Origin: a virus
Length of the DNA: 34,421 nucleotides
IMG/VR virus record: IMGVR_UViG_3300028653_000006
Location: 1-34,421 of that record
Direction: 5' to 3' (one strand)
The position numbers were made by a program, and so were the translations under genes. Shown piece after piece: positions 1,972 through 30,184 of the stretch. Position 1 is the first letter of the stretch. Each line of letters opens with the position of its first letter. The notes below the pieces were generated by a model. It saw nothing but the letters and a program-made list of their open reading frames with translations, had not been told where the DNA came from and ran no database searches.

Positions 1972-1986
1972 AAATTTTTATATATA
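1972..1986 (+). promoter_or_regulatory. Phage promoter motif, exact copy
   Basis: Exact AAATTTTTATATATA, ending 20 nt before the lipoprotein ATG at 2007. Identical copies lie at 28685-28699 (minus strand) and 28894-28908. Confidence 0.6.
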
Positions 1987-2006
1987 AACTAAAAACAAAA
2001 ACAATT

Positions 2007-2258
2007 ATGAAAAAGTTAATGATGATTTTAGCAATGACCGTGGTGCTGGCAGCATCATGCAAAAAAGCAGAAGACCCAAGTCTTACAACAACATGTGATG
2101 TATCGTATCGTTATTACAGTTCATCATGGCACACAAAGACAGTACACGGACAGAAGTTCACAGGCACACCTGATGAGATTGAAACTGAAAAAACAACAGT
2201 TATTACAACCTTAACTGCCCAAGGTTTTAAAGACGTAAAAATATTTAATTGCAAATGA
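2007..2258 (+). CDS. Small secreted lipoprotein, 83 aa
   Basis: The N-terminus is a classical lipoprotein signal: MKKLMMILAMTVVLAASCKK, with basic n-region, hydrophobic core and lipobox LAAS-C (Cys18). The mature part of about 65 residues is polar and Thr-rich, with a second and third Cys (TTTCDVSY and the final NCK) that could pair. Bacteroidota lipoproteins often begin with Cys-Lys-Lys as here. It is preceded by an exact copy of the phage promoter motif and its stop overlaps the integrase ATG (ATGA), so both are co-expressed. A surface role in lysogens, such as superinfection exclusion, is inferred from position and export only. Confidence 0.75.
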   Translation: MKKLMMILAMTVVLAASCKKAEDPSLTTTCDVSYRYYSSSWHTKTVHGQKFTGTPDEIETEKTTVITTLTAQGFKDVKIFNCK

Positions 2259-3433
2259 AACTAAAAGTATATTTCCGTATGCCATTCGCAAAGGATGGTA
2301 AGTGTCAGGTGTATATCACCTATGCTCATGCGGGTAAGCCGACAATTAAAATAGACTCAGGTCTAAGAACTGACCCAAGGATTTCAGACCCTGATATGGA
2401 TCAGAAAATTACCGATAAGTATAACGAGATCGAGAAGATCGTCTCAGACTTCTGGCATGCTCATGCTCATACTTATCCAACCCCTGATGAATTAAAGGCT
2501 GTTATAACTCGCCCAGTGATCGCAACCGATCAGGTAAGTAAGTTATACCAGTTATGGTTAGATCGTGCGACCTTCAGAGGTAAAAAGCTGCACCAGACCG
2601 TGATCAATGATATTAAGGAAGCCATCCCGAACTTTACTCTGTCTATGACCACGATTGAGAATCTGGATATTCTAAAAAATTACTGGGTGGTTACTCTTAA
2701 GATTGGTAACAACACCACGAAGAAAAGGATGCAGTTCTTTCTGCGGTTTCTAAAGAATCAGGACCGCACCGCTCAAAAACCAAATTCTGAATACCGAAAT
2801 TACGAGATCAACCTTAAATCAGCCAAGCGGGATGATAATATTTTTGTTCTAACTGAACAAGAATTTTTGGTTTTGTTTAATTTCAAGTTTGCCAACCCTC
2901 TCCGACAGTATGCCGTTAATCTTTATTTGCTTGCATGTGCAACCGCTCTCCGTATATCAGACGTAACCAAGGTACGGACAGATTCTGTTAAGACTGATAA
3001 GGATGGTGTACTAAGGGTGAGGGTACCAATTGATAAGCTGGATGGTAAACTCTCCAATGTACCATTAAATAAGTTCAGTAAAGATATCATCTTTGAGCGG
3101 AACTTGGATGTCAAGCTGGCTCAACAGCACATCAGGGAGTATCTAAAGGACGCATTCGATGAAGCGGTGCCCTTAATGCCTACCTCATTTGTCGAAGAGG
3201 TGACACATTACCAATGGGTGGGTGGATATCCGAAGAATACAACCGCTGCAAAGAAGCAATTTTTAGTGTTCCACACCTCACGGAAGTTCTTTGCCAGCTA
3301 TTTTGGGTCGCTCGTTGGTGATAAAGTCGCCCAAGAGTGGGGCAATTGGTCAACCTCTGCCAGTTATGACCGCTATAGAAAGAAAGATTTTGATGAAAAA
3401 CAAGCACTCCAGACCTTGCGAAGTATAGAGTGA
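2255..3433 (+). CDS. int: Tyrosine recombinase / phage integrase
   Basis: Catalyses site-specific recombination between phage and host DNA. The start chosen is ATG 2255 (overlapping the lipoprotein stop), giving 392 residues; a TTG at 2249 is less likely. Residues 1-90 form an arm-binding-like N-terminus, about 92-175 a SAM-like core-binding domain and 195-380 the catalytic domain. Visible catalytic residues are Arg233 (ATALRISD), a Lys in PIDKLDGK (261-265), His340-x-x-Arg343 (FHTSRKFF), Trp365 in place of the second His, and Tyr374 (or 371) in SASYDRYRK. The catalytic tail is divergent from the common Bacteroidota form. A terminator follows. It implies a temperate lifestyle, although no repressor is recognised. 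The gene looks more GC-rich than its neighbours. Confidence 0.88.
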   Translation: MKLKVYFRMPFAKDGKCQVYITYAHAGKPTIKIDSGLRTDPRISDPDMDQKITDKYNEIEKIVSDFWHAHAHTYPTPDELKAVITRPVIATDQVSKLYQLWLDRATFRGKKLHQTVINDIKEAIPNFTLSMTTIENLDILKNYWVVTLKIGNNTTKKRMQFFLRFLKNQDRTAQKPNSEYRNYEINLKSAKRDDNIFVLTEQEFLVLFNFKFANPLRQYAVNLYLLACATALRISDVTKVRTDSVKTDKDGVLRVRVPIDKLDGKLSNVPLNKFSKDIIFERNLDVKLAQQHIREYLKDAFDEAVPLMPTSFVEEVTHYQWVGGYPKNTTAAKKQFLVFHTSRKFFASYFGSLVGDKVAQEWGNWSTSASYDRYRKKDFDEKQALQTLRSIE

Positions 3434-3449
3434 TTCATTTTTGTTTGTT

Positions 3450-3483
3450 AAAAGGGGGTGAAATTAAGTTTTCACCCCTTTTT
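3450..3483 (+). terminator. Intrinsic terminator after the integrase
   Basis: GGGGTGAAA (3455-3463) pairs with TTTCACCCC (3470-3478), with flanking AAA/TTT extending the stem past one bulged G, and a T-run follows (3479-3483). It sits 17 nt after the integrase stop. Confidence 0.85.
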
Positions 3484-3510
3484 ATTTTGGAAATCAGCAA
3501 ACAAAAAATG

Positions 3511-3525
3511 ATTTTTTTATATATA
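3511..3525 (+). promoter_or_regulatory. Phage promoter motif
   Basis: ATTTTTTTATATATA, two mismatches to the 15-mer consensus, located between the integrase terminator and the packaging operon. It ends 12 nt before the ATG at 3538. Confidence 0.5.
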
Positions 3526-3537
3526 AAAGAAACGAAT

Positions 3538-3723
3538 ATGAAAATTAAAGTGAAAACTACCAGTGCATTCCTTGATAGTTTAACTGTGAATGACAAAGAG
3601 AAGGTGATAAAACTTACAAAGGATGGATATTTTTCCTTTACCGATAAAGAAGACTTACCAATATTGCGCCAACTTGCGCTGAGGGTTGATGGAATGAAGA
3701 TTGAATGTTTTGTAAAAAAATGA
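3538..3723 (+). CDS. Small hypothetical protein, 61 aa
   Basis: The frame is open from 3430, but the upstream part crosses the integrase terminator and promoter motif, so ATG 3538 is the sensible start. The product (MKIKVKTTSAFLDSL...) is a small alpha/beta-looking protein with alternating hydrophobic strands and a Lys-rich end (CFVKK). No family is recognised. It is the first gene of the packaging operon, 7 nt before the small terminase candidate. Confidence 0.6.
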   Translation: MKIKVKTTSAFLDSLTVNDKEKVIKLTKDGYFSFTDKEDLPILRQLALRVDGMKIECFVKK

Positions 3724-3730
3724 TGAGAAT

Positions 3731-4351
3731 ATGCCAAGAAGAAAACCAGAAGAAGAGTTATCAGAATACGACAGACTACCCAAATATTTAAAATTAAATC
3801 AATTAGAGAGGGAGCAAATTCAGACCCTGCATAGGTTCGGGCACGATACTGATGGTAAGGTTGCAGCTTATAATTATCTATTTCCTGAGAAGGCTGAAGA
3901 AGTAGAAGATATTTCTAAGGTTAAATGGTGGAGTATGAAGTTCGCCTATAAACATAAAGCCAAAGATGCATATATAGATACGTTGGTTGCTGGAGAATTA
4001 AAGGAGCATAATGTATCACGAGAGAATGTTACAATGAAGGTATTGAAGATTGCTATCAAAGCTGAGAAGAAGGGTGATCTGAAGACGGCCCTCGAATGCC
4101 ATAAGTTTATTGCCCGTATGCAAGGTTACGTAAGGGATAGACAGATTAATGTTGCTCAGTTCCCCACCACCATTGAAATTCATCACGAACCATTATCACT
4201 TGGGCAATCACCACAGATTTCAATTAGTTCAACTCCCGTTCCAGATGAAAATATTTTTAATTTTTTTGATGTTGAATCTCAAGATGTTACAGAGATTCCA
4301 GAAAAAAATATCGAAAAAGACGAAAAGGGAGAAAAAAATATTAATATATAG
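3731..4351 (+). CDS. terS: Terminase small subunit candidate
   Basis: 206 residues, two genes upstream of the large terminase. Small terminase subunits bind the packaging site and recruit the large subunit. The first half is helical and basic (about residues 20-95); residues 96-130 contain a helix-rich segment (VTMKVLKIAIKAEKKGDLKTAL) followed by the GYVRDRQINV transition seen in many TerS proteins. The tail is acidic and Lys-rich with low complexity (EKDEKGEKNINI), as in TerS C-termini that contact TerL. No clear helix-turn-helix could be assigned, so the call rests on position, size and general pattern. Confidence 0.55.
   Translation: MPRRKPEEELSEYDRLPKYLKLNQLEREQIQTLHRFGHDTDGKVAAYNYLFPEKAEEVEDISKVKWWSMKFAYKHKAKDAYIDTLVAGELKEHNVSRENVTMKVLKIAIKAEKKGDLKTALECHKFIARMQGYVRDRQINVAQFPTTIEIHHEPLSLGQSPQISISSTPVPDENIFNFFDVESQDVTEIPEKNIEKDEKGEKNINI
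4336..4350 (+). promoter_or_regulatory. Phage promoter motif, variant
   Basis: AAATATTAATATATA followed by GAATAAAAAA. The downstream part is identical to that after the motif before the sigma factor gene (28894-28918). It overlaps the end of terS and ends 14 nt before ATG 4365. Confidence 0.4.
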
Positions 4352-4364
4352 AATAAAAAAAGAT

Positions 4365-4601
4365 ATGATGAGCGGAAACACAAAAATATTAAAGAGACAT
4401 TTAAGCACACCTGAAATCGTTGACACTTTTCTTTGTGGAGAATTTACTCCACCTCAACTTGAAATATTAGAATTCATTATTGAAAACCGATTACCTATTG
4501 CTGATTATATTATTAAGAGTAATAAGGTTGGTCACGAACAAAGAAGATATATTCTTGCTCTTCAGCGCAAGACAAAATTGAATCAACTATGGAATGTCTG
4601 A
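4365..4601 (+). CDS. Hypothetical protein between terS and terL, 78 aa
   Basis: The frame is open from 4149, but that part is a shadow of terS. ATG 4365 (or 4368) follows the promoter-like motif and leaves little overlap. The product reads MMSGNTKILKRHLSTPEIVDTFL..., is helical and ends KTKLNQLWNV. It has a single Cys and no motif I recognise. The stop overlaps the terL start by 8 nt, so translation is probably coupled. It might assist packaging by position, but no function can be shown. Confidence 0.6.
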   Translation: MMSGNTKILKRHLSTPEIVDTFLCGEFTPPQLEILEFIIENRLPIADYIIKSNKVGHEQRRYILALQRKTKLNQLWNV

Positions 4602-5928
4602 CGATCAACCAACCAAGAAGATACAAATACATTTTAAACCTCTTCCTAAACAAGTAGAATGTCTTAAATATTTAAAGGATGATACAACCAGATTTATTCT
4701 GTACGGAGGAAGTAAAGGGTCGGGCAAATCGAGACTTGGTTGTAGCTGGCTGATATTAAACTGTCTACAATATCCATCTACCCGATGGATGATGGGTAGA
4801 GCAAGACTTCAAGACCTTTATAAGACAACCTTCCAAACATTCCAACAAATCGTTAAGGAATGGGGTCTTGAAGACATAGTTCAAATAAATTTCCAAAGAA
4901 ATATTATAACATTTAAAGGGTATGAATCTCAAATATTCATGCTCGATCTATATCCAGACCCAAGCGATTTGGAGTATAACAACATGTCTGGTCTTGAACT
5001 TACTGGTGCATTTATCGATGAGTTATCAGATATAGACCACAAAGCCTTTGAGATCATAAAGACTTTGATCAGATACAGACTGAAAGAATATGGATTAACC
5101 CCGAAAATTTTAATGGCATCGAATCCATGCCAAGGGTGGCCCTTTGATCTGATTTATAAACCTTGGGAAGAGGGTCGCTTACCATCAGATTATCAATTTG
5201 TACAGGCTTTTACGGCAGATAACACGTATCTGGGTGAAGATTATGTCAAGCAACTTGGAACAATGGAGGAAGGTAGCCAGAAGGAAAGACTATTACACGG
5301 TAGTTGGTACTATGCATCTAATGAGAATGAACTATTTGATAGGGATGCAGTCACGCAATCCTTCTATAATCAGAGAAAAACATTCGATAATAACTGGTAT
5401 ATAAGCTGTGATGTGGCTGATTTAGGTGAAGATTACACCGTGATCGTGCTCTGGCAGGGCTGGCATATTGTATCTGTAGAAAAATTACGGGTAGATCAAG
5501 TGGAATTAGCCAGTAGAATCAAGGCATTGATGAGTTTATTTCATGTTCCAGTTCGTAATGTGATCTTTGATGCTAACGGATCAGGAGCAGCAATGCCAAC
5601 ATTGGTGAGAGGGTCAGTTAGATACATCCCTCACATGAGAGCATTGAAGGAAGAAAAATATAAAACAATCAAAGCACAACTGATGTACAATTTTGCAAGA
5701 CACTTTAAACAGGCTGACATATCGTTTGGACTTGAATATAATGATGATGTTGTAAAAGAATTATGCGCATATAAGAAGAGAATAAAGAATGATATCCATG
5801 ATGTCAGTCTTAAACAAGAAGTAAAGAATTATTTAAAGAGATCACCAGATACTGCTGATGCTTTGTATATGCGCTCTTACTTTGATTATAGACCATCAAC
5901 TGGTGGTGGGTTTTCAATAATTAATTAA
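4594..5928 (+). CDS. terL: Terminase large subunit
   Basis: The DNA-packaging motor: an N-terminal ATPase drives translocation and a C-terminal RNase H-like nuclease cuts the concatemer. At 444 residues it is of normal length. Walker A is GGSKGSGKS (38-46), Walker B with catalytic Glu is FIDE (140-143), and the coupling motif is ASNP (175-178). The nuclease carboxylates are Asp273 (SCDVADLGEDY), Asp326 (VIFDANGSG) and Asp422 (DTADAL). The gene follows a small ORF with an 8-nt overlap and is followed by an AAAAAATAAT element and the next gene. All key residues are present. Confidence 0.95.
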   Translation: MSDDQPTKKIQIHFKPLPKQVECLKYLKDDTTRFILYGGSKGSGKSRLGCSWLILNCLQYPSTRWMMGRARLQDLYKTTFQTFQQIVKEWGLEDIVQINFQRNIITFKGYESQIFMLDLYPDPSDLEYNNMSGLELTGAFIDELSDIDHKAFEIIKTLIRYRLKEYGLTPKILMASNPCQGWPFDLIYKPWEEGRLPSDYQFVQAFTADNTYLGEDYVKQLGTMEEGSQKERLLHGSWYYASNENELFDRDAVTQSFYNQRKTFDNNWYISCDVADLGEDYTVIVLWQGWHIVSVEKLRVDQVELASRIKALMSLFHVPVRNVIFDANGSGAAMPTLVRGSVRYIPHMRALKEEKYKTIKAQLMYNFARHFKQADISFGLEYNDDVVKELCAYKKRIKNDIHDVSLKQEVKNYLKRSPDTADALYMRSYFDYRPSTGGGFSIIN

Positions 5929-5929
5929 C

Positions 5930-5940
5930 AAAAAATAATA
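5930..5940 (+). promoter_or_regulatory. AAAAAATAAT leader motif
   Basis: AAAAAATAATA. It favours ATG 5948 (7-nt gap) over ATG 5944 (3-nt gap) for the next gene, matching the 6-10 nt gaps at the other six copies. Confidence 0.5.
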
Positions 5941-5947
5941 AATATGA

Positions 5948-6586
5948 ATGACAAATGCAGAGATAGTTGAACGAATACACCGTGAACACAATGTAAGATC
6001 ACACATCCTAAGAAATATATCACAATCGTGGGCAGATAAAAGCTGTGATGATCTTGAACAATTTATATATGTGAATTTGCTGGAGATGAATAATGGTAAG
6101 TTAAACTCACTCTATTACACAGGTGACTATCAAAGATATATAACACAGATGATTAAGAATCAACGTGACGGGGACTCTGGGATGAAATATATAAGTAAAA
6201 AAAATGGGATATGTGTGAGTTACACCACATCAATGTATGCAAAGGAATTTAAATTGAAGGATCACGCTATTATAACGGACTACCCTATTGATGTAGATGA
6301 TGTATGGTCTGACCCAAGAGTAGAATTTATCTATGCCTGTTTGTCAGGATATAGTTATATGCGTGAAGTGAGTGGTGCAACTAATTATCAATTGAAGTTG
6401 GCCCTCGCAAGTGATCTGCTACTATTCTACGCCAGAAGAAAAATGTCACTCAGAGAAGTAGGAGAAAAATTTAACATGAAAAGGTGGAAGGTAGCGATGC
6501 TACTTAAAGCAGTAAAAGACGAATTGAAGAATAAATTTAAAAATGAATATAAAGAGAATGATTGGATTGCCGATGATATTTTTTGA
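5948..6586 (+). CDS. Sigma-70-like / helix-turn-helix protein
   Basis: 212 residues. Residues about 25-75 (SCDDLEQFIYVNLLEMNNGKL...) look like sigma region 2, with an acidic helix, a Tyr/Leu-rich core and a DYQRYITQMIKNQ helix. Residues about 155-205 contain a helix-turn-helix like region 4 (MSLREVGEKFNMKRWKVAMLLKAV). The middle is unusual for sigma factors. It may be a transcription factor for late genes or a diverged second sigma factor beside the one at 28928. A packaging-linked DNA-binding role is possible given that it follows terL. The start is supported by the AAAAAATAAT element. Confidence 0.5.
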   Translation: MTNAEIVERIHREHNVRSHILRNISQSWADKSCDDLEQFIYVNLLEMNNGKLNSLYYTGDYQRYITQMIKNQRDGDSGMKYISKKNGICVSYTTSMYAKEFKLKDHAIITDYPIDVDDVWSDPRVEFIYACLSGYSYMREVSGATNYQLKLALASDLLLFYARRKMSLREVGEKFNMKRWKVAMLLKAVKDELKNKFKNEYKENDWIADDIF

Positions 6587-6893
6587 AATTATCTTGATGA
6601 TAATATTATCCAGTTGCTGGGGTATAGTGATAGTTGAAGAGTTCATTCCATTACAGCAACTGAAGGATAAACTTGGATTAGGTCAACAAAGAAAATTATA
6701 TAGTCAATATATTATCATCGATTATATAATATTCATTATTTGGAAAGTTATAGGCTGCCCTATGTGTATGTCATACCATTTATTTTGGATCAGTTACCTG
6801 ATCATATTTGGTTCGTTTTTTGGATTAATACTTGGTGTGCTACCATACTTTTTAACTTTTTTTATTAAAAAATGGATGTCAATAACGCTATGA
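6543..6893 (+). CDS. Small integral membrane protein with CxxC, up to 116 aa
   Basis: At least three hydrophobic stretches are visible: near the N-terminus (MIFFEIILMIILSSCWGIVIV), in the middle (IIIDYIIFIIWKVI) and at the end (LIIFGSFFGLILGVLPYFLTFFI). A CPMC motif sits between the last two. Small phage membrane proteins with a Cys-pair before the last helix exist, but I cannot name this family with confidence. Starts at 6543, 6558 and 6573 are possible; 6573 leaves the smallest overlap with the preceding gene. It lies among packaging genes, away from the holin candidates at 17947-18595. It could act in lysis or membrane modification; function unknown. Confidence 0.6.
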   Translation: MNIKRMIGLPMIFFEIILMIILSSCWGIVIVEEFIPLQQLKDKLGLGQQRKLYSQYIIIDYIIFIIWKVIGCPMCMSYHLFWISYLIIFGSFFGLILGVLPYFLTFFIKKWMSITL

Positions 6894-7069
6894 AGAAATG
6901 GGATAAGGAAAAAAGAAGAAAATATAATAGAGAATATTATCATAAACAATATAATAAATATTCTCATTCAAGTATTTTAATTCTTGAATTTATACAGCGG
7001 TATTACCATGACTATGATATACTTATAGATTATGAACAGGCTGAAAAATTAATGAAAAATAATGAATAA
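6872..7069 (+). CDS. Small basic hypothetical protein, 65 aa
   Basis: Overlaps the preceding membrane protein gene by 22 nt and the next ORF by 8 nt. The N-terminal half is strongly basic and Tyr-rich (KKWDKEKRRKYNREYYHKQYNKY), suggesting nucleic-acid contact. The C-terminal half is an acidic helical segment. No family is recognised. The tight overlaps on both sides argue that it is part of a translated operon. Confidence 0.55.
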   Translation: MDVNNAMKKWDKEKRRKYNREYYHKQYNKYSHSSILILEFIQRYYHDYDILIDYEQAEKLMKNNE

Positions 7070-7229
7070 ATATATTCAATTTTTCTCGGCAGACGACAAT
7101 TTAAGTCTGTTTGATCGGCAAATTATACTTGATCAAATAGCCAAAAATTTATATATAAAGGAAATACGAAAAAAGAAGTTGGAAAAGATATATGGTACAA
7201 AAGAGTTCGATAATGTTTGCAAAAAATAA
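7062..7229 (+). CDS. Micro-ORF, 55 aa
   Basis: ATG at 7062 lies just before the preceding stop (7067-7069) and the frame runs to TAA 7227-7229. The product begins MNKYIQFFSADDNLSLFDRQ and continues with an amphipathic Ile/Leu/Lys-rich helix, ending NVCKK. It overlaps the ATP-grasp gene start by 38 nt (or 17 nt if that gene starts at 7213). The composition and overlap arrangement resemble its neighbours, so it is probably translated. It contains a copy of the phage promoter motif in frame (coding Lys-Asn-Leu-Tyr-Ile). No function is recognised. Confidence 0.5.
   Translation: MNKYIQFFSADDNLSLFDRQIILDQIAKNLYIKEIRKKKLEKIYGTKEFDNVCKK
7143..7157 (+). promoter_or_regulatory. Phage promoter motif, inside a micro-ORF
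   Basis: AAAAATTTATATATA, two mismatches to the consensus. It lies 34 nt before ATG 7192 of the ATP-grasp gene. It overlaps coding sequence, so it could be coincidental. Confidence 0.4.
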
Positions 7230-8484: not shown

Positions 8485-8888
8485 TTATAAATGTTAAAAG
8501 AAAAATTTATGGAGATAATTATACCATCGGTGAGATGTACATCAATGACAACTATTTGTGTGATACACTGGAAGATGTTGTTAGAGATGATGGTGTAAAA
8601 GTACAAGACCAAACAGCGATCCCTGCTGGCACCTATCAATTAATACTTGATATGAGTACCAGATTTGGTAAAATAATGCCACATATACTGAATGTTCCAG
8701 ACTTTCAAGGTATCCGCATTCATTGTGGTAATTCATCTAAAGACACATCAGGTTGTATTCTTGTTGGTACTTACAACGGGCAAGCTGACTACATTAAAGA
8801 TAGTACCGTAGCCTATAATGTGCTGATGGATATTCTTGGGAGGGCCACCAAAAGGACAGAAAAAATAATGATAACAATTGAGAATTAA
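8481..8888 (+). CDS. DUF5675 family protein, possible cell-wall enzyme
   Basis: 135 residues matching the DUF5675 pattern: an IGEMYIND beta-strand pair, CDTLEDVVRD, AIPAGTY, then GIRIHCGNSSKDTSGCILVG. The His81...Ser90-Gly91-Cys92 arrangement resembles the HG...S/TxGC active site of L,D-transpeptidase (YkuD-like) folds, so a peptidoglycan-acting role is plausible, though that is inference. No other endolysin candidate is visible in the genome, which strengthens the idea. The gene starts in an ATGA overlap with the ATP-grasp gene. Confidence 0.7.
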   Translation: MIINVKRKIYGDNYTIGEMYINDNYLCDTLEDVVRDDGVKVQDQTAIPAGTYQLILDMSTRFGKIMPHILNVPDFQGIRIHCGNSSKDTSGCILVGTYNGQADYIKDSTVAYNVLMDILGRATKRTEKIMITIEN

Positions 8889-10431: not shown

Positions 10432-10446
10432 TAAAATTTATATATA
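10432..10446 (+). promoter_or_regulatory. Phage promoter motif before the capsid operon
   Basis: TAAAATTTATATATA (three mismatches to the consensus), ending 18 nt before ATG 10465. It follows the stop of the frameshifted gene by 15 nt. Confidence 0.5.
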
Positions 10447-12797: not shown

Positions 12798-12812
12798 CAA
12801 ATTTTATATATA
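12798..12812 (+). promoter_or_regulatory. Phage promoter motif before the portal gene
   Basis: CAAATTTTATATATA, i.e. AAATTTT-ATATATA with one T fewer than the consensus. It lies 68 nt before ATG 12881 and directly after the capsid-operon terminator, so it restarts transcription. Confidence 0.55.
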
Positions 12813-14398: not shown

Positions 14399-17300
14399 AT
14401 GACGACATATAAATCATTTTTAGACTTGGTTAATGTGGCCCTGAGTGCCATTACGTTTAACGGTAGTCCTTTTTTTGCTTACACGGAGATAGCACTGTTT
14501 GATGAATTGGAACTTGACCCGAAAACAAACTACCCAGCAGCATTCATAACACCGATTGCATTTGATTTTAATGATATTAATCAAGTGACATTTAAAGCAA
14601 GAATATATCTACTTGATAAGGTAACACCACTTGATAGAATGCAAAAATATTCAACCTTGGTTAATGTCGCTTATCAGTTTATGCAGACAATCGATGATCT
14701 GATATCAGGTGAGGTGAACAAATTTCCCAACACATTCACACCAGTTCAATATTTTGATGCAAATGTTGATGGTTTTTATTTTGATTATGAGTGTTATGAC
14801 TCACTATCATGTACTGGAACTGACATCTACACTATACTTACTGGTGCAACAATAATGCAGCAGAATGGTACCTCAGGTACAGATGGTAGTTCAGGATCAT
14901 CTGGTGTAGATGGAGACTTTTACGGAACTAATGGAACTTCTGGTATTGATGGAGGTTTTGGAGGTAATTCTCTTGAATATTTATTCTCCACACAACCGTT
15001 TGTTCCCACTGATTCATATTTAGTGTTTGATAATACTAACCCAGTAGATGTTACATACATCAGTGTAAATGTGGTTGATATTAATGGTACAAATAATTAT
15101 GATTGGTTTACTTCGCTAACAGTTAACTCATATTTCAGGATTTTTGAAAAACAAGACTCTGGTTGCTATAACATATTTAGAATAGTAAGTATAAGCGACA
15201 ATACAACAGAAGTTGTAGGAGGAACCAAAGTTCCAAATATCGGAACCTTTGATATAGAGATTCAGTATATTACTGGTCATTGTACTTATTCACAAGATGA
15301 AGATATAGTGTTAAGTTACTCCGAGACAGGAGTAGATGGCACATCAGGAACAAGTGGGTATTCTGGAATAAATGGTGCTGTATCTGATGAATGGGTATAC
15401 ACCGACTCTAACAAGTTTGATAATCCTACATACTTTAACTTAGACACTGAGATATCAGGATTTTACATTTCCACTACATCCCTACGACATAGCAATAATT
15501 CAAATTTTTTATCGGTTTGGGCAACTTTTGACCTTCTGCAAATCACGCAGAAATCCGACCCTTCAAATACATCATTCTATCAGATAACTTCATCAATTTC
15601 AATGAGTAGTTATTATATAATGGAAGTATACAATTACGTGGAAGGAAGTTGGTTAACTGGGCAGACTTATGTTCTATCTTTTTCAAAATCTGGAAGTAAT
15701 GGGAGTTCGGGTAGTTCAGGGACTTCAGGAAATTCAGGATCGTCAGGTAGTTCAGGGACTTCAGGAAATTCAGGATCATCAGGGACAGATGGTAGTTCGG
15801 GTGTTTCTGGGACTTCAGGTTCCTCTGGAACTTCTGGATCATCAGGTTCTTCTGGGAGTTCAGGAACCGCAGGGACTTCTGGCTCTTCTGGAACTTCTGG
15901 ATCATCAGGTTCTTCTGGGAGTTCAGGAACCGCAGGGACTTCAGGTTCTTCTGGGACTTCAGGCACTTCAGGTGTTGGTGGAGCGGTAAATACCGTACAA
16001 TTTAACTCTGCTGGTGCATTATCTGGTGCGACAGGTATGACTTGGGATGGAGTTGAACTAAATGTTAACAACATCAATCTCCCTATGACTGATACTGGTA
16101 CAACTGCTGTAGGCATCATTTACAAAGGTGGGTCGCTGTTCATCCACGATGCTAACCCACACGGTGCTGGTAACTCATTCAACACATTTGTGGGGATTGA
16201 GTCTGGTAATTTAACAATGGGTGGTGTATCACCAAACGGTAATTATAATACAGCCTTTGGTAGACGTTCTATGATGAATAATACTACAGGTCAACGTAAC
16301 ACTGCATTAGGTGCATATGCTCTATATTTAAATACAACTGGCTATCAAAATGTGGCAGTAGGGCTCAGTTGCCTACAAAATAATACTATTGGTTATTCAA
16401 ATGTTGGCGTTGGTTTTAATTCCTTGTGTAATAATGTTACTGGTTTAACGAATGTTGCTATTGGAAACTATGCTCTTGAGAAGAACCAAAACTCTGATAA
16501 TATGGCAGTAGGTTATCAGGCATTAAATGCAAATCTGAATGGCTATCAAAATGTTGCCATTGGAACATACACCATGGTTAATAATACTAATGGTGTTGGT
16601 AACATTGGGATTGGATTTGAAGCATTATATAACAATCTAACTGGAGCAACAAATGTGGCAATCGGTAATACTGCACTATTTTACAACACCGCAACAAATA
16701 ACGTGGCTATAGGTAATCAGGCTATGTACACCAATACTAACGGTAATAATAATGTTGGTATCGGATATCAGTCACTGGGTGCAAATACAACTGGTAACTT
16801 TAATATGGGTATTGGTGCGTATTCGTTAACATCAAACAATATTGGTGTTGCCAATGCAGCTATGGGTTATGCTTCATTATTTTCGTGTACTGAGGGTGCT
16901 GGTAACACTGCAATTGGTTTCTATGCTGGATATGATATCAATACAGGAAGCTATAATATCGCTCTTGGTTACACAGCACTGCGATTGAATCAGTCTGGTG
17001 CTGGTAATGTAGCACTTGGATACCAGACTTTATGGTCTAATACAGGAAGTTACAATATAGGTATTGGATATAACACGCTAGTTAACAATACAACTGGTAC
17101 ACCACTGGTGGCAATTGGTAATAGCGCACTATTTAATAACACCACTGCATCCGATAACATAGCAATTGGATCGTATTGTATGTACACAAACAGAACAGGT
17201 GCAACGAATGTCGCAATCGGTAATAACGCTCTCTATTCAACTTACGGTAGCGGAAATGTGGGAATAGGCTATTATGCTGGCTACTACGAACAAGGTAGCA

Positions 17301-17560
17301 ATAAATTGTTCATTGATAACGCACCCAGAGCAAGTGAAGCTGATGGAAGAGCAAAATCTCTTATATATGGAGAATTTGCTGCATCCTTAGCAAACCAGAA
17401 GATCACATTCAATGTGCCCCAGATTAATATTTCAGCCAGTAAGACACCATCCAGTGCAACTGATACAGGTGTTGCTGGTGATCATGCATGGGATGCATCA
17501 TATATCTATGTGTGTACAGCAACAAACGCATGGAAGAGAGCAGCAATAGCAGCTTGGTAA
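14399..17560 (+). CDS. Tail fibre fused to a tail-terminator-like N-terminal domain
   Basis: 1053 residues. Residues 1-145 look like a tail completion or terminator protein ([20 protein letters not shown]..., [24 protein letters not shown]...). Collagen-like Gly-x-Ser-Gly stretches follow at about 159-189, 313-327 and 431-526. Residues about 600-944 carry 21 repeats of the NvAiG..al..n..G type seen in YadA-like trimeric adhesin heads. The end ([27 protein letters not shown]) is a conserved fibre tip. This is probably a trimeric receptor-binding fibre. The fusion of neck and fibre functions is unusual; alternatively the N-terminus is only an anchor domain. It begins 2 nt after the connector gene's stop. 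Confidence 0.75.
15707..15785 (+). repeat. 36-bp tandem repeat in the fibre gene
   Basis: The unit starting GGTAGTTCAGGGACTTCAGG at 15710 recurs at 15746 (36 bp = 12 codons, Gly-Ser-Ser-Gly-Thr-Ser type) with one mismatch. It encodes the collagen-like segment. Confidence 0.7.
15824..15942 (+). repeat. 63-bp tandem repeat in the fibre gene
   Basis: 15824-15879 is identical to 15887-15942 (56 bp, offset 63 bp = 21 codons), and the bases joining them are near-identical too. The high DNA identity points to recent unequal recombination or slippage, so fibre length may vary between phages. Confidence 0.75.
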
Positions 17561-17911: not shown

Positions 17912-17912
17912 T

Positions 17913-17927
17913 AAATTTTAGATATAT
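17913..17927 (+). promoter_or_regulatory. Phage promoter motif, AGATATAT variant
   Basis: AAATTTTAGATATAT, ending 19 nt before ATG 17947. The same AGATATAT core occurs at 28694-28708, before the 57-aa plus-strand ORF. Confidence 0.45.
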
Positions 17928-22958: not shown

Positions 22959-22974
22959 TATTTTATGTTTATTT

Positions 22975-25900
22975 TTAGTAATATGGTAATTTGTATGATA
23001 CGCCAGCAACTTGAATTAATACCCAGCCTGATGGTGTGCCTAAATAGTTAGTCCCTGATCCATAATGTGTCGTGGATGCGGCACCTGATGCTGTTGATGG
23101 TGCTGTTGTATGATCAAAAAAGTTAATAGTGTTCGTTGTAGTGTCGTTAAAATTAATTGGTGATACACCAGATATATTTAGAGGGCCACTTAGATATGTA
23201 CTATCTTGTACCACTAAATCATCACGTATAGTTACACTTTTACGAATGTCTAAATATCCTGTGCATGCAACAGACTCAATACCACTTGCTGTAAACCCAG
23301 ATAAGGCACCATTTCCTACAGAAGTTGGGGATGTATATTTAACATAGTATGGGTCAGAGCCAGTAGTTGCTACAATAGGTGAAGTGCCTGAAGTCCCTGA
23401 AGTACCATCTGTCCCAGATGTAAATCCAGATATTGATACAATATTATTACCTATAATAATAGTGTTATTATCAGTTATAGTCTTACCTGTCGTGCCAATA
23501 ATTATAATATTTGTCAATCCAGTTGAAATTATACAATCAGTGGAATTCATCAATGTTACATTATCTGAATTGACTGTATTTCCGTGAGAATTAACAAGAC
23601 TTACATTATTTGCATTGATTACATTGTTATTACCAGTTACATTATAGTTCTCACCATATATTTGATTACCTTTACCTATAACTATACCAGCATATTTTGG
23701 ATTAACTATATTTTTATCGCTATAATAGGTAACACCAGTTTCTAAATAAGCAATTTGTCCTTGGGACTGTAACACTATACCACTGCTCTTAGTTACTCCA
23801 TTCTGATTTAACCTACTCTTATCTTCTGAACCAGAACCACCAGACTGATAATAATCAGGATCATCAGGCACTGTTAACTTGATAAGTTCAACCTTACAAT
23901 ATTTGTTGGGGCTCCACTCATTTATTTTTAGCAATATATATGGTTCATTGTTCAATATCACATACTTGCGGAAGTTAAGTTGGTTGATATCAGATTGTGA
24001 TAATCTCATATACACCGTTAACTTACGACTACGTGGATTCTGATATAACCAAATCTTATATTTCCAGTAGTCCCAATATAAATCATCTACAGGCACGTTT
24101 ACGTTCCTATGAAAGTAATATTTATTTTTACCAAATTCAATAGATTTAGTTGGGTTGTACGGATCGTCAAATATTCCAGCATATGGAATATAATTTAAGC
24201 TGCCAGTACCCATTATATAATAGACAAAGCCGTCTGGATAGTATATATTATTACCATCTAAGTGGGAAATGATCGGCACCTGATTTAGTTGGAAAGTTGG
24301 AGTTACTATCTTACGTTGTAAGATGCGGGCCTCGAATTTATCGAACCACACCTCTTTATTATCAGTATGATTGCTATCTCTATCATCCTTATTATACATC
24401 TGACTTACCAGCCAATTTGTATTGGAAAAATAATTGAGAGTTGTGGGACAGAATTGAGTTTCAATTTTTTGAGACTCTGCTGAGTAATAAGGATTAGGTA
24501 AATATTTCGTTGAGAAATTCATATGTGTCGCATTCAAATAGTCCTTTAAATTAGTGTCACCATCGTCTGACTTGTACTGGAGATAAACATCTTTATCTAA
24601 TAAGTCTTCAATTCTTTCAATTTCAATGTCCTCTGATATATCTACTTTATTACTCCAATCAACATTTGTATTATTGTAAAAAGTTGGAAATGTCTCAATT
24701 ATAAAGTTGTTCTTATTAGCATTATCCTCGGTGAAGACAAGGTTAAACATGTTGGAAATAGATTTAAGAAAGTCTACTTGCTTCATATTCGATGGTAATA
24801 TATGGTTGGCGTACATTTGATTGCCCTCATATATAATTCCATCCTCATCGTAATCATTCTTAAAGTGTAGATTTGAACTTTCTAAATTAACCCACGCATA
24901 GGTATATCCAATTCTTTGTATTTCAGACCCATTCATATAACCATACGCATTACCATTATTACTAACGATAAATTTTAAATATACTTTATCATTTTTTAGC
25001 AGTGGTATAGGTGTATCAATAGTTCCAGAGTAATGTATATTAGTCTGATAATATGGATTAGTATAGCTGTTAGGTTGTGTGATTGGACATTGTGGAAAAT
25101 TTCCTATCACAGTATCGGTTGCACCTGTTCCACTTATTTTGTGAATTTCAACATCCAACCTAATTTCACCCCAATTACCAGCTACATTCCACTTATATAC
25201 GGTACCAGTATACCAAGTTTGCCCGTATGGTGTATAATTACCATGATTAACTGCTGCCCAGTATGTCTCTAAGTACAATGAGAGCGATGCATCTAAACTG
25301 AATGTGTAAGATATTCCATTAGTTGGACATGTAAAGTATTGATTTGCAAATACATTATTCGGATCAACATATTCATAGGGAAGTGATGGAATTGCTGTTT
25401 TATGTGTGTGTTCTCCACCACCAACATTGAAGTCGCTAACATCAAAAAAATCTTTAAAACCATGACCATTTTGATTTCCAAAATTTGCACAATAGGTGGG
25501 TGGATTATTACTTCCATTAAAATCTGAAGTTAATCCAACATCAAACTTATAATAACTACTATCTAATGGATCACTTTCATACTGATCTGTCATTGGTAGG
25601 ATCAAGGATTTAAAGAAAGGTGAGGTTAGAAAAGCTGATGAATATGTATACCCAGCCTTTGCAAAAATTTTATCCCATATTTCACTTATGTACAGTGAAG
25701 GTTTGAAATAACTTACATCATATTTATTATCCCAATATTTACCCTGTAAATCAATCATTGGATAGTACACACCCTTAGAGTTTGGATAATTTGCAAATGG
25801 ATAAGCTGTTCCTGATGTATTCCAAGTTGAGCTGATATTTGTAAAATTAAAAGTATGATCATACTCAGAAAAATCTAAATTATCGTTTTTCAATTCGTTC

Positions 25901-26769
25901 TTTACGAGTTGTTTATCGCCTATTTTATCTTTGAAAGTCTTCAAATTCGAATAAAAAGTAGCTTCATATTCTGATACATTATTATTCTTTCTGATAAGTG
26001 TAAGTTCTAAAGTCCCAATTAGTAATTGTACGGAGTCATAGAAGATTCCAGCAGGGATTTTCTTGTTCAGGAACATTGAATAGTTCGTACTACCGCTATT
26101 TAGAGTTGCAAAATTGTAATATTGGTTCTCATTTACATGACCAAATAATTTGTTATTATTAGCAGTTGCGGGAACCGTAAATGTCTTTGAATAACTTGCT
26201 GACAGTGTAGATATATCAGTATAGACCTGATAAGTTATATTTATCGAATCTTCATCATAAAGATTGACATGTGCATATGAAGAGTTAGTCTCAGTTAGAG
26301 ATATATTACTCAAATATCCGTCAAATCCCCTCGAAGGAGCGAATAGTATCCTATTATCAATTGTTGTACCTGTCCAATCAGCAGCATTATACTGAAATGT
26401 ATATGAATATCTACCGTTAGACATGGTACTCGTGCCAGAATAACCCATGAACCAAGGTGTAATAGTAGATGGATTAGTCAAATTCTTAATATCAAATTCT
26501 AATGTATAATTCTGTCCATCCTCTAATGTAGAAGCATCGAAATATTGATATAGTTTACTTGTGATAGCTGATTGGCTTGCCATCCATCCATTTATCCACT
26601 TCCAACCCGATAGTGTAGTGTACGATGTTGTACCGCTGTCCGATAGACTCCTACCAGAGGTTGATCCAGTGGCTCCATCTGATTCCCAGTTCTGGGTATA
26701 AAATCTAAAATCTGAATTTGGTAGTGTAACACCATTGGTTGGGAATATTCTGAGTTCTAATCGATTCAT
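22975..26769 (-). CDS. Large tail/baseplate protein with fibre-like C-terminus
   Basis: 1264 residues. The N-terminal region is beta-rich, with a jelly-roll-like stretch (KWINGWMASQSAITSKLYQYFDAS...DGQNYTLEFDI). The middle has a tail-hub-like pattern. From about residue 1060 there are Asn/Val repeats (NNNVINANNVSLVNSHGN...) likely forming a beta-helix, then a GTSG linker. The tip (GTPSGWVLIQVAGVSYKLPYY) is a conserved phage fibre ending. I read it as a baseplate or tail protein carrying its own receptor-binding tip. It follows the 26778 gene and precedes the tape measure by one small gene. No enzymatic motif is seen. Confidence 0.65.
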   Translation of the reverse strand: MNRLELRIFPTNGVTLPNSDFRFYTQNWESDGATGSTSGRSLSDSGTTSYTTLSGWKWINGWMASQSAITSKLYQYFDASTLEDGQNYTLEFDIKNLTNPSTITPWFMGYSGTSTMSNGRYSYTFQYNAADWTGTTIDNRILFAPSRGFDGYLSNISLTETNSSYAHVNLYDEDSINITYQVYTDISTLSASYSKTFTVPATANNNKLFGHVNENQYYNFATLNSGSTNYSMFLNKKIPAGIFYDSVQLLIGTLELTLIRKNNNVSEYEATFYSNLKTFKDKIGDKQLVKNELKNDNLDFSEYDHTFNFTNISSTWNTSGTAYPFANYPNSKGVYYPMIDLQGKYWDNKYDVSYFKPSLYISEIWDKIFAKAGYTYSSAFLTSPFFKSLILPMTDQYESDPLDSSYYKFDVGLTSDFNGSNNPPTYCANFGNQNGHGFKDFFDVSDFNVGGGEHTHKTAIPSLPYEYVDPNNVFANQYFTCPTNGISYTFSLDASLSLYLETYWAAVNHGNYTPYGQTWYTGTVYKWNVAGNWGEIRLDVEIHKISGTGATDTVIGNFPQCPITQPNSYTNPYYQTNIHYSGTIDTPIPLLKNDKVYLKFIVSNNGNAYGYMNGSEIQRIGYTYAWVNLESSNLHFKNDYDEDGIIYEGNQMYANHILPSNMKQVDFLKSISNMFNLVFTEDNANKNNFIIETFPTFYNNTNVDWSNKVDISEDIEIERIEDLLDKDVYLQYKSDDGDTNLKDYLNATHMNFSTKYLPNPYYSAESQKIETQFCPTTLNYFSNTNWLVSQMYNKDDRDSNHTDNKEVWFDKFEARILQRKIVTPTFQLNQVPIISHLDGNNIYYPDGFVYYIMGTGSLNYIPYAGIFDDPYNPTKSIEFGKNKYYFHRNVNVPVDDLYWDYWKYKIWLYQNPRSRKLTVYMRLSQSDINQLNFRKYVILNNEPYILLKINEWSPNKYCKVELIKLTVPDDPDYYQSGGSGSEDKSRLNQNGVTKSSGIVLQSQGQIAYLETGVTYYSDKNIVNPKYAGIVIGKGNQIYGENYNVTGNNNVINANNVSLVNSHGNTVNSDNVTLMNSTDCIISTGLTNIIIIGTTGKTITDNNTIIIGNNIVSISGFTSGTDGTSGTSGTSPIVATTGSDPYYVKYTSPTSVGNGALSGFTASGIESVACTGYLDIRKSVTIRDDLVVQDSTYLSGPLNISGVSPINFNDTTTNTINFFDHTTAPSTASGAASTTHYGSGTNYLGTPSGWVLIQVAGVSYKLPYY

Positions 26770-26777
26770 ATATTATC

Positions 26778-28154
26778 TTAATTTTGTTGGATCACCTTGT
26801 CGTTAGCGGGTCTAAGGCTGATCGTGTATTGTATTTCTTTATCATTTACCTTCTGTTCATACTTAATACTATCAGTATTAACGATATAAGGCACAGCATA
26901 GGGATATATACCATATCCACTTGGATCATACTGATAAGTTTTAATTACATATACAACAGGTGACTGAGCCATCTGGATAAGTAACTGACTTTCTTGTTGT
27001 GTTACCCAATTGCTGGTTAATATTAACTCTTCGGTAACATTTGTGTAGAACACTTTTTCTCCAGCAGTGTAAGTGTTGTAATATGGAGGTAAATATTGTT
27101 TATAGGTCTTTCGATCAATTTTCTCATTAATCGTGGCTTTACGGTCAAATGTGTAACAATCAAATGCACCGTGAGGGTTTAACCAAAACACTTGAGTTAG
27201 GTTATATCTGCTACATTTATTTTTTCTCATTACCCAAAATGGTTTACTAATTACCCTACTGTGGTTATCCATTAATTCGATTTTGATCATCACCCATGTA
27301 TTATCGATGTATTCTTTTTGCAGCATTTGCATGGGGCCGCATGGGATGCTATACATCAATGAACCTGTATATGTATAGGTACAATCTTCAAAATTGTATG
27401 ACATTTGTGTACATAGTGGGGTATAGTTACGTGATTGATCATCCAGACTAATAAAATTAGAGGATAGCGGCATCGATTGAGATAATACTTCATCTCGTGC
27501 ATTTATATTAATACCTATTACTCTATCCTCGTCATGGTCTGGAATACCAGTTGAATTTGAATATGTGGTATAAAGTATCTGGGAAGGTCGATGTGCCGAG
27601 TCACTCAAAAAATTTATGAAACCATAATCTGTGTTATCCAGATTATATTGAGTTGCATCAGTCAACCATTTACCAGTTGTGGCACTATTTACCATCACCC
27701 ATTGTGTGTTAGAATAGCCTATCGTAACATTGTCGTAAGGCAAAAATTGCTGGCACCCGATATAATAGCTAATACCCCCAGCATTAATAGGTGCTCCTTG
27801 AATCGCTGGCTGAGATGTTGCTGTGGATGAGTAATATTCATACACCATCATATATACTTTAGCCGCTGATGGTGTACATTCATGCAAGTTTAATCTGGCA
27901 ACATCAAAATCATAAGTCAAATAATCTTTAATTATTGAAGTAGGATTAAACTGACAGGTGCCACCAGAGTTTGGGTAAAATAGGAAAGGGCCTATATCTA
28001 TAACAGTTGTATCATCCGCTGGAAAGAAGCGCAAGGTGATATAAAATTGAAAATTTGTCATAGTAAACTTAGAAGAATAAAATATATATGTGCACCTATT
28101 AGTATCGTGGACTCGTGCCCAATCGGATGGAACTTTAATTGTGGTTATTGCCAT
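26778..28154 (-). CDS. Tail protein, probably distal tail/baseplate
   Basis: 458 residues, beta-rich, with Tyr, Asn and Thr abundant, and no signal peptide. The pattern WLNPHGAFDCYTFDRKATIN, followed later by EELILTSNWVTQQESQLLIQMAQSPVVYVI and a strand-rich C-terminus, resembles tail proteins of Bacteroidota siphoviruses, where this gene precedes the large fibre-like protein. It starts in a TAATG overlap with the completion protein gene. The family is not certain, but the position is consistent with distal tail or baseplate assembly. Confidence 0.6.
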   Translation of the reverse strand: MAITTIKVPSDWARVHDTNRCTYIFYSSKFTMTNFQFYITLRFFPADDTTVIDIGPFLFYPNSGGTCQFNPTSIIKDYLTYDFDVARLNLHECTPSAAKVYMMVYEYYSSTATSQPAIQGAPINAGGISYYIGCQQFLPYDNVTIGYSNTQWVMVNSATTGKWLTDATQYNLDNTDYGFINFLSDSAHRPSQILYTTYSNSTGIPDHDEDRVIGININARDEVLSQSMPLSSNFISLDDQSRNYTPLCTQMSYNFEDCTYTYTGSLMYSIPCGPMQMLQKEYIDNTWVMIKIELMDNHSRVISKPFWVMRKNKCSRYNLTQVFWLNPHGAFDCYTFDRKATINEKIDRKTYKQYLPPYYNTYTAGEKVFYTNVTEELILTSNWVTQQESQLLIQMAQSPVVYVIKTYQYDPSGYGIYPYAVPYIVNTDSIKYEQKVNDKEIQYTISLRPANDKVIQQN

Positions 28155-28678
28155 TATTTTTTCTTTATTTTTTGTATTGCATCGTTAATATCCTGTCGAA
28201 TTGCGTTTTGAAGAGCAGTGCGAAACATCGGATTACGGTGTTCATCAACAAATTTAGCTTCGTTCATAAAAGGAACTGCTGGGTGATTATTAGAAAGAAT
28301 TGATTTACTCACAGCATAAGCAGCACTGCGTAGTCTACTCTTGGCTTCTCCCCGTTTTGTGGGTCTTAATTTAGATGTGCGGCCCCTTCCTACTGATACT
28401 TTTTTCTTTTGAAGCCATTTCTGTACTGAATCAACCATTTCAGGAGAAGGGTTCTTTGTACTTCTTTTAGTGCCAGAATTAATGAACTCTCCATATTCAT
28501 TTGAACTGAATTTAATCTTAAAGGTGTTGGTTGTAGGCATAGTAATCTTATACTCTATAGAGTTCACCAGCTTGCCTGTAGCAAGTTTTCTTTTCTTCAA
28601 AAGGACATCCTTCATTGACTTAGATGCTAAGTCAGCATAATGCTCTATCACCTTATATAATTTCAGTTGTGTAATCAT
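28154..28678 (-). CDS. Head-tail joining / tail completion protein candidate
   Basis: 174 residues, first gene of the minus-strand tail operon. An N-terminal helix (KVIEHYADLASKSMKDVL) is followed by RKLATGKLVNSIEYKI, a strand pair ending in YGEFINSGTKRSTKNPSPEM and a WLQKKK helix. This resembles HK97 gp10-like proteins, which join tail to head. The C-terminal half is very basic. The ATG is only 6 nt after an exact promoter motif, which would make the mRNA nearly leaderless if that motif is a -10 element. Confidence 0.6.
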   Translation of the reverse strand: MITQLKLYKVIEHYADLASKSMKDVLLKKRKLATGKLVNSIEYKITMPTTNTFKIKFSSNEYGEFINSGTKRSTKNPSPEMVDSVQKWLQKKKVSVGRGRTSKLRPTKRGEAKSRLRSAAYAVSKSILSNNHPAVPFMNEAKFVDEHRNPMFRTALQNAIRQDINDAIQKIKKK

Positions 28679-28684
28679 CAGCTA

Positions 28685-28699
28685 TATATATAAAAATTT
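28685..28699 (-). promoter_or_regulatory. Phage promoter motif for the tail operon, exact copy
   Basis: Exact AAATTTTTATATATA on the minus strand, ending 6 nt before the ATG at 28678. It overlaps the plus-strand AGATATAT variant at 28694-28708, so the two divergent transcripts share this 30-bp region. Confidence 0.6.
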
Positions 28700-28708
28700 A
28701 GATATATA
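28694..28708 (+). promoter_or_regulatory. Phage promoter motif, plus-strand variant
   Basis: AAATTTAGATATATA, ending 5 nt before ATG 28714. The core AGATATAT recurs at 17920-17927. Confidence 0.4.
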
Positions 28709-28713
28709 GAGCG

Positions 28714-28887
28714 ATGAAATTTGTCCAACTATTCAAAGAGAATATCATAAAGGAACTTCGGGAGACTGACCCCAGAGATAGAGAGGTTATAAATGAACTC
28801 CTCGATATATTATACAAGATAAATCAAGGGTGTGATGTATTTCTCATCAATAATTTATACTACTTGATTTACAATCCTGACGACTAA
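28714..28887 (+). CDS. Micro-ORF, 57 aa, divergent to the tail operon
   Basis: ATG 28714 to TAA 28885-28887. The product begins MKFVQLFKENIIKELRETDP and is a small acidic helical protein with a hydrophobic end (VFLINNLYYLIYNPDD). It lies between the divergent promoter region and the sigma factor gene. The reading frame looks natural (no rare-pattern residues), but no family is recognised. Confidence 0.5.
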   Translation: MKFVQLFKENIIKELRETDPRDREVINELLDILYKINQGCDVFLINNLYYLIYNPDD

Positions 28888-28889
28888 CC

Positions 28890-28924
28890 TGACAAATTTT
28901 TATATATAGAATAAAAAATTGTCA
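28890..28924. promoter_or_regulatory. Inverted repeat flanking the sigma gene promoter motif
   Basis: TGACAAATTTTT (28890-28901) and AAAAAATTGTCA (28913-28924) are reverse complements with one mismatch, and the promoter motif 28894-28908 overlaps the left arm. A repressor or the sigma-linked regulator could bind here. Confidence 0.4.
28894..28908 (+). promoter_or_regulatory. Phage promoter motif before the sigma factor gene, exact copy
   Basis: Exact AAATTTTTATATATA ending 19 nt before ATG 28928. If it is recognised by the encoded sigma factor, the gene is self-activating. Confidence 0.6.
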
Positions 28925-28927
28925 CAC

Positions 28928-29434
28928 ATGACATTTCACGAAGCAACAGGGGTAGATTTTGATAAATTCTACACAACATATCAGCCTAAACTTAAGGCTT
29001 TTCTAAAGAAAAATTTCCAGAGAACAAATACTGAAGTTATTGAAGACTGCATAACTGATTCTTTCATAAAGGTTTGGAAGAATATTCATAATTATAATGG
29101 TGATAAGGGTAGTGTAGTTACATACTTAACCCAGATCGCCATCAATGATCTGCGGTATCAGGAGCGTAGGCGCATTAAGATGCCGACTGTCAGTATAGAT
29201 TTATTCTATGATATTTGTGAGGAGATCGAGGAAGAAGACACCACTAATGAACGATATATTCAAATGATAAAGAAGATCGACAGAATAAAGAATCCAAAGA
29301 TCAGGGAGGCTGTTATATTGAAGGATGTTCAGGGTATTCCATATCTGGAGATGGAGGAAATTACTGGAGCCAACGGAAACACTTTGAGATCACGTGTCAA
29401 AAAAGGTAGAAAACTTCTAACCAAGAAAAATTAG
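28928..29434 (+). CDS. Phage RNA polymerase sigma factor (ECF-like)
   Basis: 168 residues from ATG 28928 (a TTG at 28919 would add 3). Region 2 is residues about 8-82: FDKFYTTYQPKLKAFL, VIEDCITDSFIKVWKNIHNYNG and VTYLTQIAINDLRYQERRR, the helices that open and bind the -10 element. Region 4 (about 110-165) has REAVILKDVQGIPYLEMEEIT and NTLRSRVKKGRKLL, a helix-turn-helix for the -35 element. This two-domain form is typical of ECF sigma factors. It is expected to redirect the host RNA polymerase to phage promoters. The best candidate sites are the AAATTTTTATATATA copies. It is followed 7 nt later by the SGNH gene. Confidence 0.82.
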   Translation: MTFHEATGVDFDKFYTTYQPKLKAFLKKNFQRTNTEVIEDCITDSFIKVWKNIHNYNGDKGSVVTYLTQIAINDLRYQERRRIKMPTVSIDLFYDICEEIEEEDTTNERYIQMIKKIDRIKNPKIREAVILKDVQGIPYLEMEEITGANGNTLRSRVKKGRKLLTKKN

Positions 29435-29441
29435 CGAAAAA

Positions 29442-30110
29442 ATGATACATTGTATAGGCGATAGCCATGTTAATATTTTTGAGAATCAGATAGGTTTTGT
29501 TACACATAATATTAAGGTAATAGATGGATTAGATAAGACTATAACTGCCTCCCACATTCGTTCTTTTATACCTACAATCAATGAGTTCGTTGCAGACGTA
29601 CAACCAGATGATTATATTTTATTCTCCGCTGGAGAAGTGGATGTAAGGTGCTTTTTCGAAAATAAAATTGAATACTATAAAGACTTAAAGTCTAAAGATG
29701 AGATCATTGATGGAGTTGTGATGAGATATTTTTCAGAGATTTACCAAAATTATGGTGGGCACAAATTGATATTTTACGGGCCTGTCCCTTCGTACCACGA
29801 TAAGAATAAAAACTTAGCACTTGCGCAGCTTAAGAATGCTTTCCACATGGCTCCAGATGAAGAATTCTTTGCAACTGGTAGTTATACTAATAGAGAGAGA
29901 AATGAGATAACACGGATATTCAACAAAAAATTGAAATACCTATGTGATATCAACTCCGTTAACTTCTTTACAATGTTCTATAATCTTATAACTGAGGACG
30001 GTACAACCAACTTTGGAATGTATGGTAGTGAAGATGGATGTCACATAGATAAAAAATATGTCCATGTTGTTATCGATAAATTACTCTCATCTATAAATTA
30101 TTCTCGCTGA
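29442..30110 (+). CDS. SGNH/GDSL-type hydrolase
   Basis: 222 residues. The SGNH motifs are visible: GDSH near the N-terminus (Gly6-Asp7-Ser8-His9, with Ser8 as candidate nucleophile), AGEVDVR (block III-like, about 63-69) and SEDGCHID near the end (Asp198-x-x-His201). Family members are esterases acting on acyl or acetyl groups of glycans and lipids. No signal peptide is present, so it acts in the cytoplasm or in the virion. It lies in a plus-strand block ending with a fucosyltransferase-like gene, suggesting glycan acetyl removal or editing. Activity is inferred from motifs only. Confidence 0.65.
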   Translation: MIHCIGDSHVNIFENQIGFVTHNIKVIDGLDKTITASHIRSFIPTINEFVADVQPDDYILFSAGEVDVRCFFENKIEYYKDLKSKDEIIDGVVMRYFSEIYQNYGGHKLIFYGPVPSYHDKNKNLALAQLKNAFHMAPDEEFFATGSYTNRERNEITRIFNKKLKYLCDINSVNFFTMFYNLITEDGTTNFGMYGSEDGCHIDKKYVHVVIDKLLSSINYSR

Positions 30111-30169
30111 TATACAGCAACATACAATTATTTTAACATTTTTTAACAATTTTTCTTCAAACAAAGGAG

Positions 30170-30184
30170 ATATATTTATATATA
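30170..30184 (+). promoter_or_regulatory. Phage promoter motif before the regulator gene
   Basis: ATATATTTATATATA (three mismatches to the consensus), ending 40 nt before ATG 30225. It drives the block leading to the primase-helicase gene. Confidence 0.5.

Follow-up and report, generated by a model that had tools for sequence, protein, structure and literature searches.

What is the role of the short element AAATTTTTATATATA, which recurs ahead of genes throughout the virus record IMGVR_UViG_3300028653_000006 of IMG/VR (34,421 nucleotides, nt; this whole stretch is hereafter called the window), and which protein would read it? The window begins and ends with the same 127 bases and thus probably represents a whole genome that was assembled as a circle. 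Library scans identified genes for a terminase, a portal, tail-type proteins, an integrase and a BT4734-like/VapE-type primase, and since the terminase matches those of phages of Flavobacterium, Cellulophaga and Bacteroides, the host of this uncultured phage is presumed to belong to the Bacteroidetes. A phage sigma-promoter system as such is well supported. On balance we favour the view that AAATTTTTATATATA is a phage-specific promoter recognition element whose likeliest reader is the extracytoplasmic function (ECF) sigma factor encoded at 28928, which would thereby control its own gene; that this protein, rather than a second sigma-like protein encoded at 5948, reads the motif appears likely.

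The original prediction described three exact copies of a 15-mer, at 1972, 28685 (minus strand) and 28894, and eight variants lying 5–68 nt before gene starts. All of these were located (Table 1), the variant placed at 17913 being aligned here at 17912, and the reversed pattern gave no match. Each of the 11 sites faces the gene that follows it. The motif is contiguous and AT-rich (WAAWWTTTATATATA), with no clear -35 element evident. When 16 sites were aligned, they formed a single block of ~15–17 bp that reads approximately WAAWWTTTATATATAWA. Its TT and ATATA columns are invariant, and 15–25 nt upstream of it these sites share no conserved element. AAAC/CAAA-like traces at a few sites were considered as a -35 element and rejected, being evident neither by eye nor from column content. 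Two copies lie only 5–6 nt from the start codon, and the mRNAs starting there would be leaderless if the motif serves as a -10 element; such mRNAs are known from Flavobacterium, where they account for a small share (5.5%; PMC9723704).

Table 1. Copies of the motif and genes for sigma-like proteins in the window.
Feature	Position	Strand	Remarks
Motif copy, exact	1972..1986	+	20 nt before lipoprotein gene 2007, upstream of integrase; 15.9 bits; ortholog L001:5520
Motif copy	3511..3525	+	12 nt before start 3538; matrix match; ortholog L001:7366
Motif copy	4336..4350	+	End of gene 3731–4351; 14 nt before start 4365; heads terminase operon; ortholog L001:8157
Motif copy	7143..7157	+	Inside short open reading frame 7062–7229; 34 nt before gene 7192; ortholog L153:351
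Motif copy	10432..10446	+	18 nt before gene 10465, upstream of putative capsid gene 11226; ortholog L153:3081
Motif copy	12798..12812	+	68 nt before portal gene 12881; matrix match
Motif copy	17912..17926	+	20 nt before gene 17947; 15.3 bits with 16-site matrix; not among the matches listed for the independent matrix
Motif copy, exact, divergent	28685..28699	-	6 nt before gene 28154–28678 and tail operon; 17.4 bits, best in the genome
Motif copy overlapping divergent 28685 copy	28694..28708	+	5 nt before gene 28714; matrix match
Motif copy, exact	28894..28908	+	19 nt before sigma gene start 28928; 15.1 bits
Motif copy	30170..30184	+	40 nt before gene 30225; heads block running to primase; 16.2 bits
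ECF-family sigma factor, 168 amino acids	28928..29434	+	Leading candidate reader of the motif; NCBIfam, Pfam, PHROGs, PDB sequence search, fold search
Second sigma-like protein, 212 amino acids	5948..6586	+	Right after terminase; rival candidate reader; missed by the original prediction

That the motif exceeds chance, as had been claimed, is borne out by its position, by an independent matrix and by Markov controls, whereas the excess in plain mismatch counts is only modest: with up to three mismatches the window contains 27 matches, against 12 ± 3.9 in dinucleotide shuffles (shuffle maximum 22). With up to two mismatches, 10 of 13 matches lie in sequence called noncoding, which makes up ~7% of the genome, and 12-mers inside the motif show the strongest enrichment of any words ahead of genes (Bonferroni 1e-3). 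The independent matrix was built solely from five sites in two related contigs, L001 and L153, and scanned on both strands of the window. Ten of the 11 sites were among its 11 best places; the copy at 17912 was missed and a coding match at 30688 (minus strand) intruded. The comparison of a position matrix with shuffled sequence, which had been suggested as a check, was run on order-2 Markov copies of the noncoding sequence: at 12 bits, nine noncoding segment-strands contain a match against 0.54 in the copies, none of 300 copies reaching nine.

Alignment with related phages, also suggested, placed the motif at orthologous positions in L001 and L153, which represent one close relative in two fragments. 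L001 encodes a terminase ~90% and an integrase 75% identical to those of the window, and L153, from the same metagenome, a capsid protein 82% identical. Searches for further close relatives, with the sigma factor, the 5948 protein and the capsid, integrase and ATP-grasp-like proteins as queries, returned only L001, L152 and L153. Sites 1972, 3511, 4336, 7143 and 10432 and the site of the sigma operon have counterparts in this relative, and across the six pairs the motif is 83% identical, against 61% for the flanks. Sites 4336 and 7143 overlap terminal or short coding sequence, and a conserved short reading frame at 7143 could alone explain the conservation of that site, which is not independent evidence. 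The wider comparison set comprised 44 terminase relatives, with terminase identities of 36–38% except for L001. A scan at 14 bits, using a matrix built from the window, L001 and L153 sites, gave 11 matches in the window and four in L001, against five in ~29 other related phage and prophage records together, only one of them noncoding, so that the motif is almost missing there. In distant capsid relatives the motif is not present as an enriched word.

One exact copy had been said to lie directly before an ECF-like sigma gene, and the identity of that gene is upheld by profile searches. ATG 28928 is a better start for it than TTG 28919. The product scores above the cut-offs of TIGR02937 (E = 2.1e-16; 60 bits versus 42.9) and Pfam Sigma70_r2 (39.6 versus 24) and just below that of Sigma70_r4_2 (22.3 versus 25.7), and its fold matches are to ECF sigma factors (E = 1.4e-5). 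In size and domain content it conforms to the family, which has regions 2 and 4, no others, and about 170–200 amino acids. The only related protein among the 44 records searched is that of L001 (E = 1.8e-8), where a motif copy (L001:3314) heads the operon containing the ECF sigma gene. Altogether 23 of the 44 terminase relatives match the ECF sigma model, L001 alone exceeding the cut-off, and the sigma-matching relatives other than L001 lack AAATTTTTATATATA. Apart from the few matches counted above, it is also absent from relatives without this sigma factor, where its retention had been named as a reason to abandon the prediction. A tblastn search with the sigma protein against 50,697 phage records yielded seven weak matches (best E = 2e-7), none of them named phiEco32-like. 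The neighbouring gene at 29442 showed nothing clear in general library scans, in which no search aimed at anti-sigma factors was made.

Several observations weigh against this protein as the reader. The motif has neither the AAC-type -35 nor the CGT-type -10 sequence of ECF promoters, features that are typical but not universal, phage outliers being known. Although the window and L001 share the same motif, identity between their ECF proteins is just 25%, compared with ~90% for the terminases and 75% for the integrases, which weakens the assignment of the motif to the ECF protein. No host-like element that could start an autoregulatory loop was found before the window sigma gene. Finally, there is the second sigma-like protein, whose standing depends in part on what is seen in more distant relatives.

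These relatives show a further pattern missed by the original prediction: they carry a phage sigma factor of another family and a bipartite promoter, found at 43 sites, that consists of AAAYTAAA, a fixed gap and TCTATTATATA or TACATTATATA, with an ATG mostly 2–3 nt further on. In a leave-one-genome-out scan, noncoding matches to it, nearly all followed by ATG, occurred in 16 of 17 sigma carriers and in none of 18 other records, counts that include close kin, so that the records are not all independent. An order of expression with the host promoter first and the phage sigma second fits these relatives, because most sigma carriers have a host-type TAnnTTTG box some hundreds of nt ahead of the sigma gene and the top upstream word of the sigma-less relative G040, TACTATTTTTGC, contains one. 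In another sigma-less relative, G028 (L148/L149), the word TTACTTCCAAATT is enriched in upstream regions and may be an operator. In the distant relative G058 (L171/L172), three sigma-like proteins are encoded within 3.3 kb (2262–5525, minus strand), one of which resembles the sigma family of the related phages. Two further candidates were set aside: a family whose gene lies behind that of the terminase in most relatives (e.g. L025:7856–8419), which at first seemed sigma-like from a weak phmmer match but whose members read as structural-type proteins, and the annotated 'RNA polymerase sigma factor' of phage Versailles, which aligned poorly with the present sigma factors and whose C-terminus looks LuxR-like.

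When the window was searched with the sigma profile of these phages, the best match was the protein encoded at 5948 (E = 0.017), with region-2-like and region-4-like parts collinear and 15–21% identity in the alignment, whereas the 28928 protein was not matched. The 5948 protein has a region-4-like end (E = 2.9e-4), its gene sits in the operon headed by site 4336, and TATATA, a short distance before the start codon, terminates both the window motif and the related phages' promoter. The 5948 protein is a serious rival as reader of the motif; the 28928 protein would then have another role, such as a later or alternative step. We nevertheless consider this arrangement unlikely: the homology is weak, fold matches are weak too (mostly to sigma factors, best E = 0.04) and the structure model is poor (predicted local distance difference test score, pLDDT, 59). 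Furthermore, the bipartite promoter is unlike the motif and finds no match in the window, and the gap between L001 and L153 falls on the 5948 gene, leaving it uncovered in the close relative.

An operator for a phage regulator, or some other regulatory DNA element that is not a sigma-read promoter, would account for the self-complementary TATATATA and for the two copies that overlap between divergent operons, and one copy is followed by the gene for a small protein (30225–30425) that, from inspection by eye, is possibly of the ribbon-helix-helix type. However, the full motif is asymmetric and always faces its gene, the copies 5–6 nt from a start codon suit a -10 element, and the small protein has no Pfam match; we regard an operator as improbable. 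More improbable still are a variant host housekeeping promoter and simple AT-rich upstream composition as explanations of the motif. The sigma-A promoter of Flavobacteriaceae hosts, TAnnTTTG (PMC9723704), is found at none of the 11 sites, in agreement with the initial description of the motif as unlike it. Upstream regions of these genomes are generally A/T-rich, and unconstrained expectation-maximization motif finding without a tight background drifted to that A-rich composition, yielded nothing else and was discarded; the excess of the motif nonetheless persists against the noncoding-only Markov controls, and related phages that are equally AT-rich lack it. Reading by a phage single-subunit RNA polymerase, for which contiguous promoters without a -35 element like the present block are typical, has a negligible probability, as the window proteins that were scanned include no match to an RNA polymerase family; the large ones among them are the primase, a protein with collagen repeats and two that matched nothing.

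Returning to the ECF sigma factor, the sites with their orientation, enrichment and conservation, the ECF homology, the lack of the motif in relatives without this sigma and the joint occurrence of sigma and promoter in the related phages are all observed, whereas we infer promoter activity, reading by a sigma factor, the identity of the reader, autoregulation and timing. The protein encoded at 28928–29434, as the likeliest reader, would bind the host core RNA polymerase and steer it to about 11 operons, namely those of the integrase, terminase, head and portal, both directions of the tail/sigma region, and the replication block. Recognition would be mainly by sigma region 2, because the motif is contiguous, AT-rich and without an obvious -35 element. 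As the gene of the sigma factor itself lies behind an exact copy, the loop would be self-amplifying: early in infection the host polymerase may make some sigma, which would then take over the eleven sites, including its own. Both sigma-like genes of the window lie behind the motif, so that neither offers an evident source of the first sigma. A host-like TAAATTTG box at 1401, conserved at L001:5367, could start the genes from 1652 onward. Thus, of the predicted autoregulated sigma factor that switches most operons, the promoter family before most operons stands, with the ECF protein as its likely reader and autoregulation read from gene position only.

The TAAATTTG box is part of a noncoding stretch near the integrase (1347–1455; L001:5313–5421; 84% identical) with an inverted repeat, TCTGAACAAA...TTTGTTCAGA, which may be an attachment site or an early promoter. 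Elsewhere in the window, 31020–31919 encodes a glycosyltransferase family 10 (fucosyltransferase-type) domain, and 14399–17560 a likely tail fibre of 1053 amino acids, in which collagen-type GTSGSSG repeats precede a series of NNxAIGxxAL motifs.

Most known examples of a phage sigma factor with its cognate promoters come from phages of E. coli and Bacillus. A literature search found no phage sigma-promoter system for phages of the Bacteroidetes, whose hosts use an unusual promoter code. Tentatively, the wide, uncultured group of presumed Bacteroidetes phages considered here may have changed sigma and promoter together repeatedly, one branch having the bipartite, near-start (leaderless) promoter and the branch of the window a contiguous, -10-only promoter with two sigma-like proteins in series. 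If the proposed sigma-promoter system holds true, these phages would offer a natural record of joint change in sigma and promoter, and a phage group would supply several compact sigma-promoter pairs usable as orthogonal expression parts in Bacteroidetes.

The closest known system is that of phage phiEco32, in which, as proposed for the window, a phage ECF sigma factor is combined with several short AT-rich promoters. Its sigma factor, gp36, reads tAATGTATAtA, located 6–8 nt before transcription starts (PMC4281155), and in phage 7-11 phage promoters likewise occur upstream of the sigma gene (PMC4331800). However, phiEco32, SU10 and 7-11 have enterobacterial hosts, larger genomes, another motif sequence and fewer phage promoters (six in phiEco32), and the window sigma is not a close homologue of the phiEco32 system. 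In addition, phiEco32 has a host sigma-70 inhibitor, gp73, and none was identified in the window. The late promoters of T4 (TATAAATA), which are read by the phage sigma factor gp55, are also an AT-rich -10-like element without a -35, and the window motif resembles them in form only. Gp55 is not an ECF protein and works with the clamp and gp33; unlike gp55, the window sigma has a region 4, and partners of the clamp/gp33 type were not identified in the window. The sigma-A promoters of Flavobacteriaceae belong to the presumed host group, but their -10 sequence is unlike the window motif. The pairs of the related phages (G003–G030) differ in sigma family, in the bipartite, fixed-spacing promoter 2–3 nt before the ATG and in the TAnnTTTG box ahead of the sigma operon; like the window, they combine a phage sigma factor with a private AT-rich promoter that ends in TATATA and precedes several operons.

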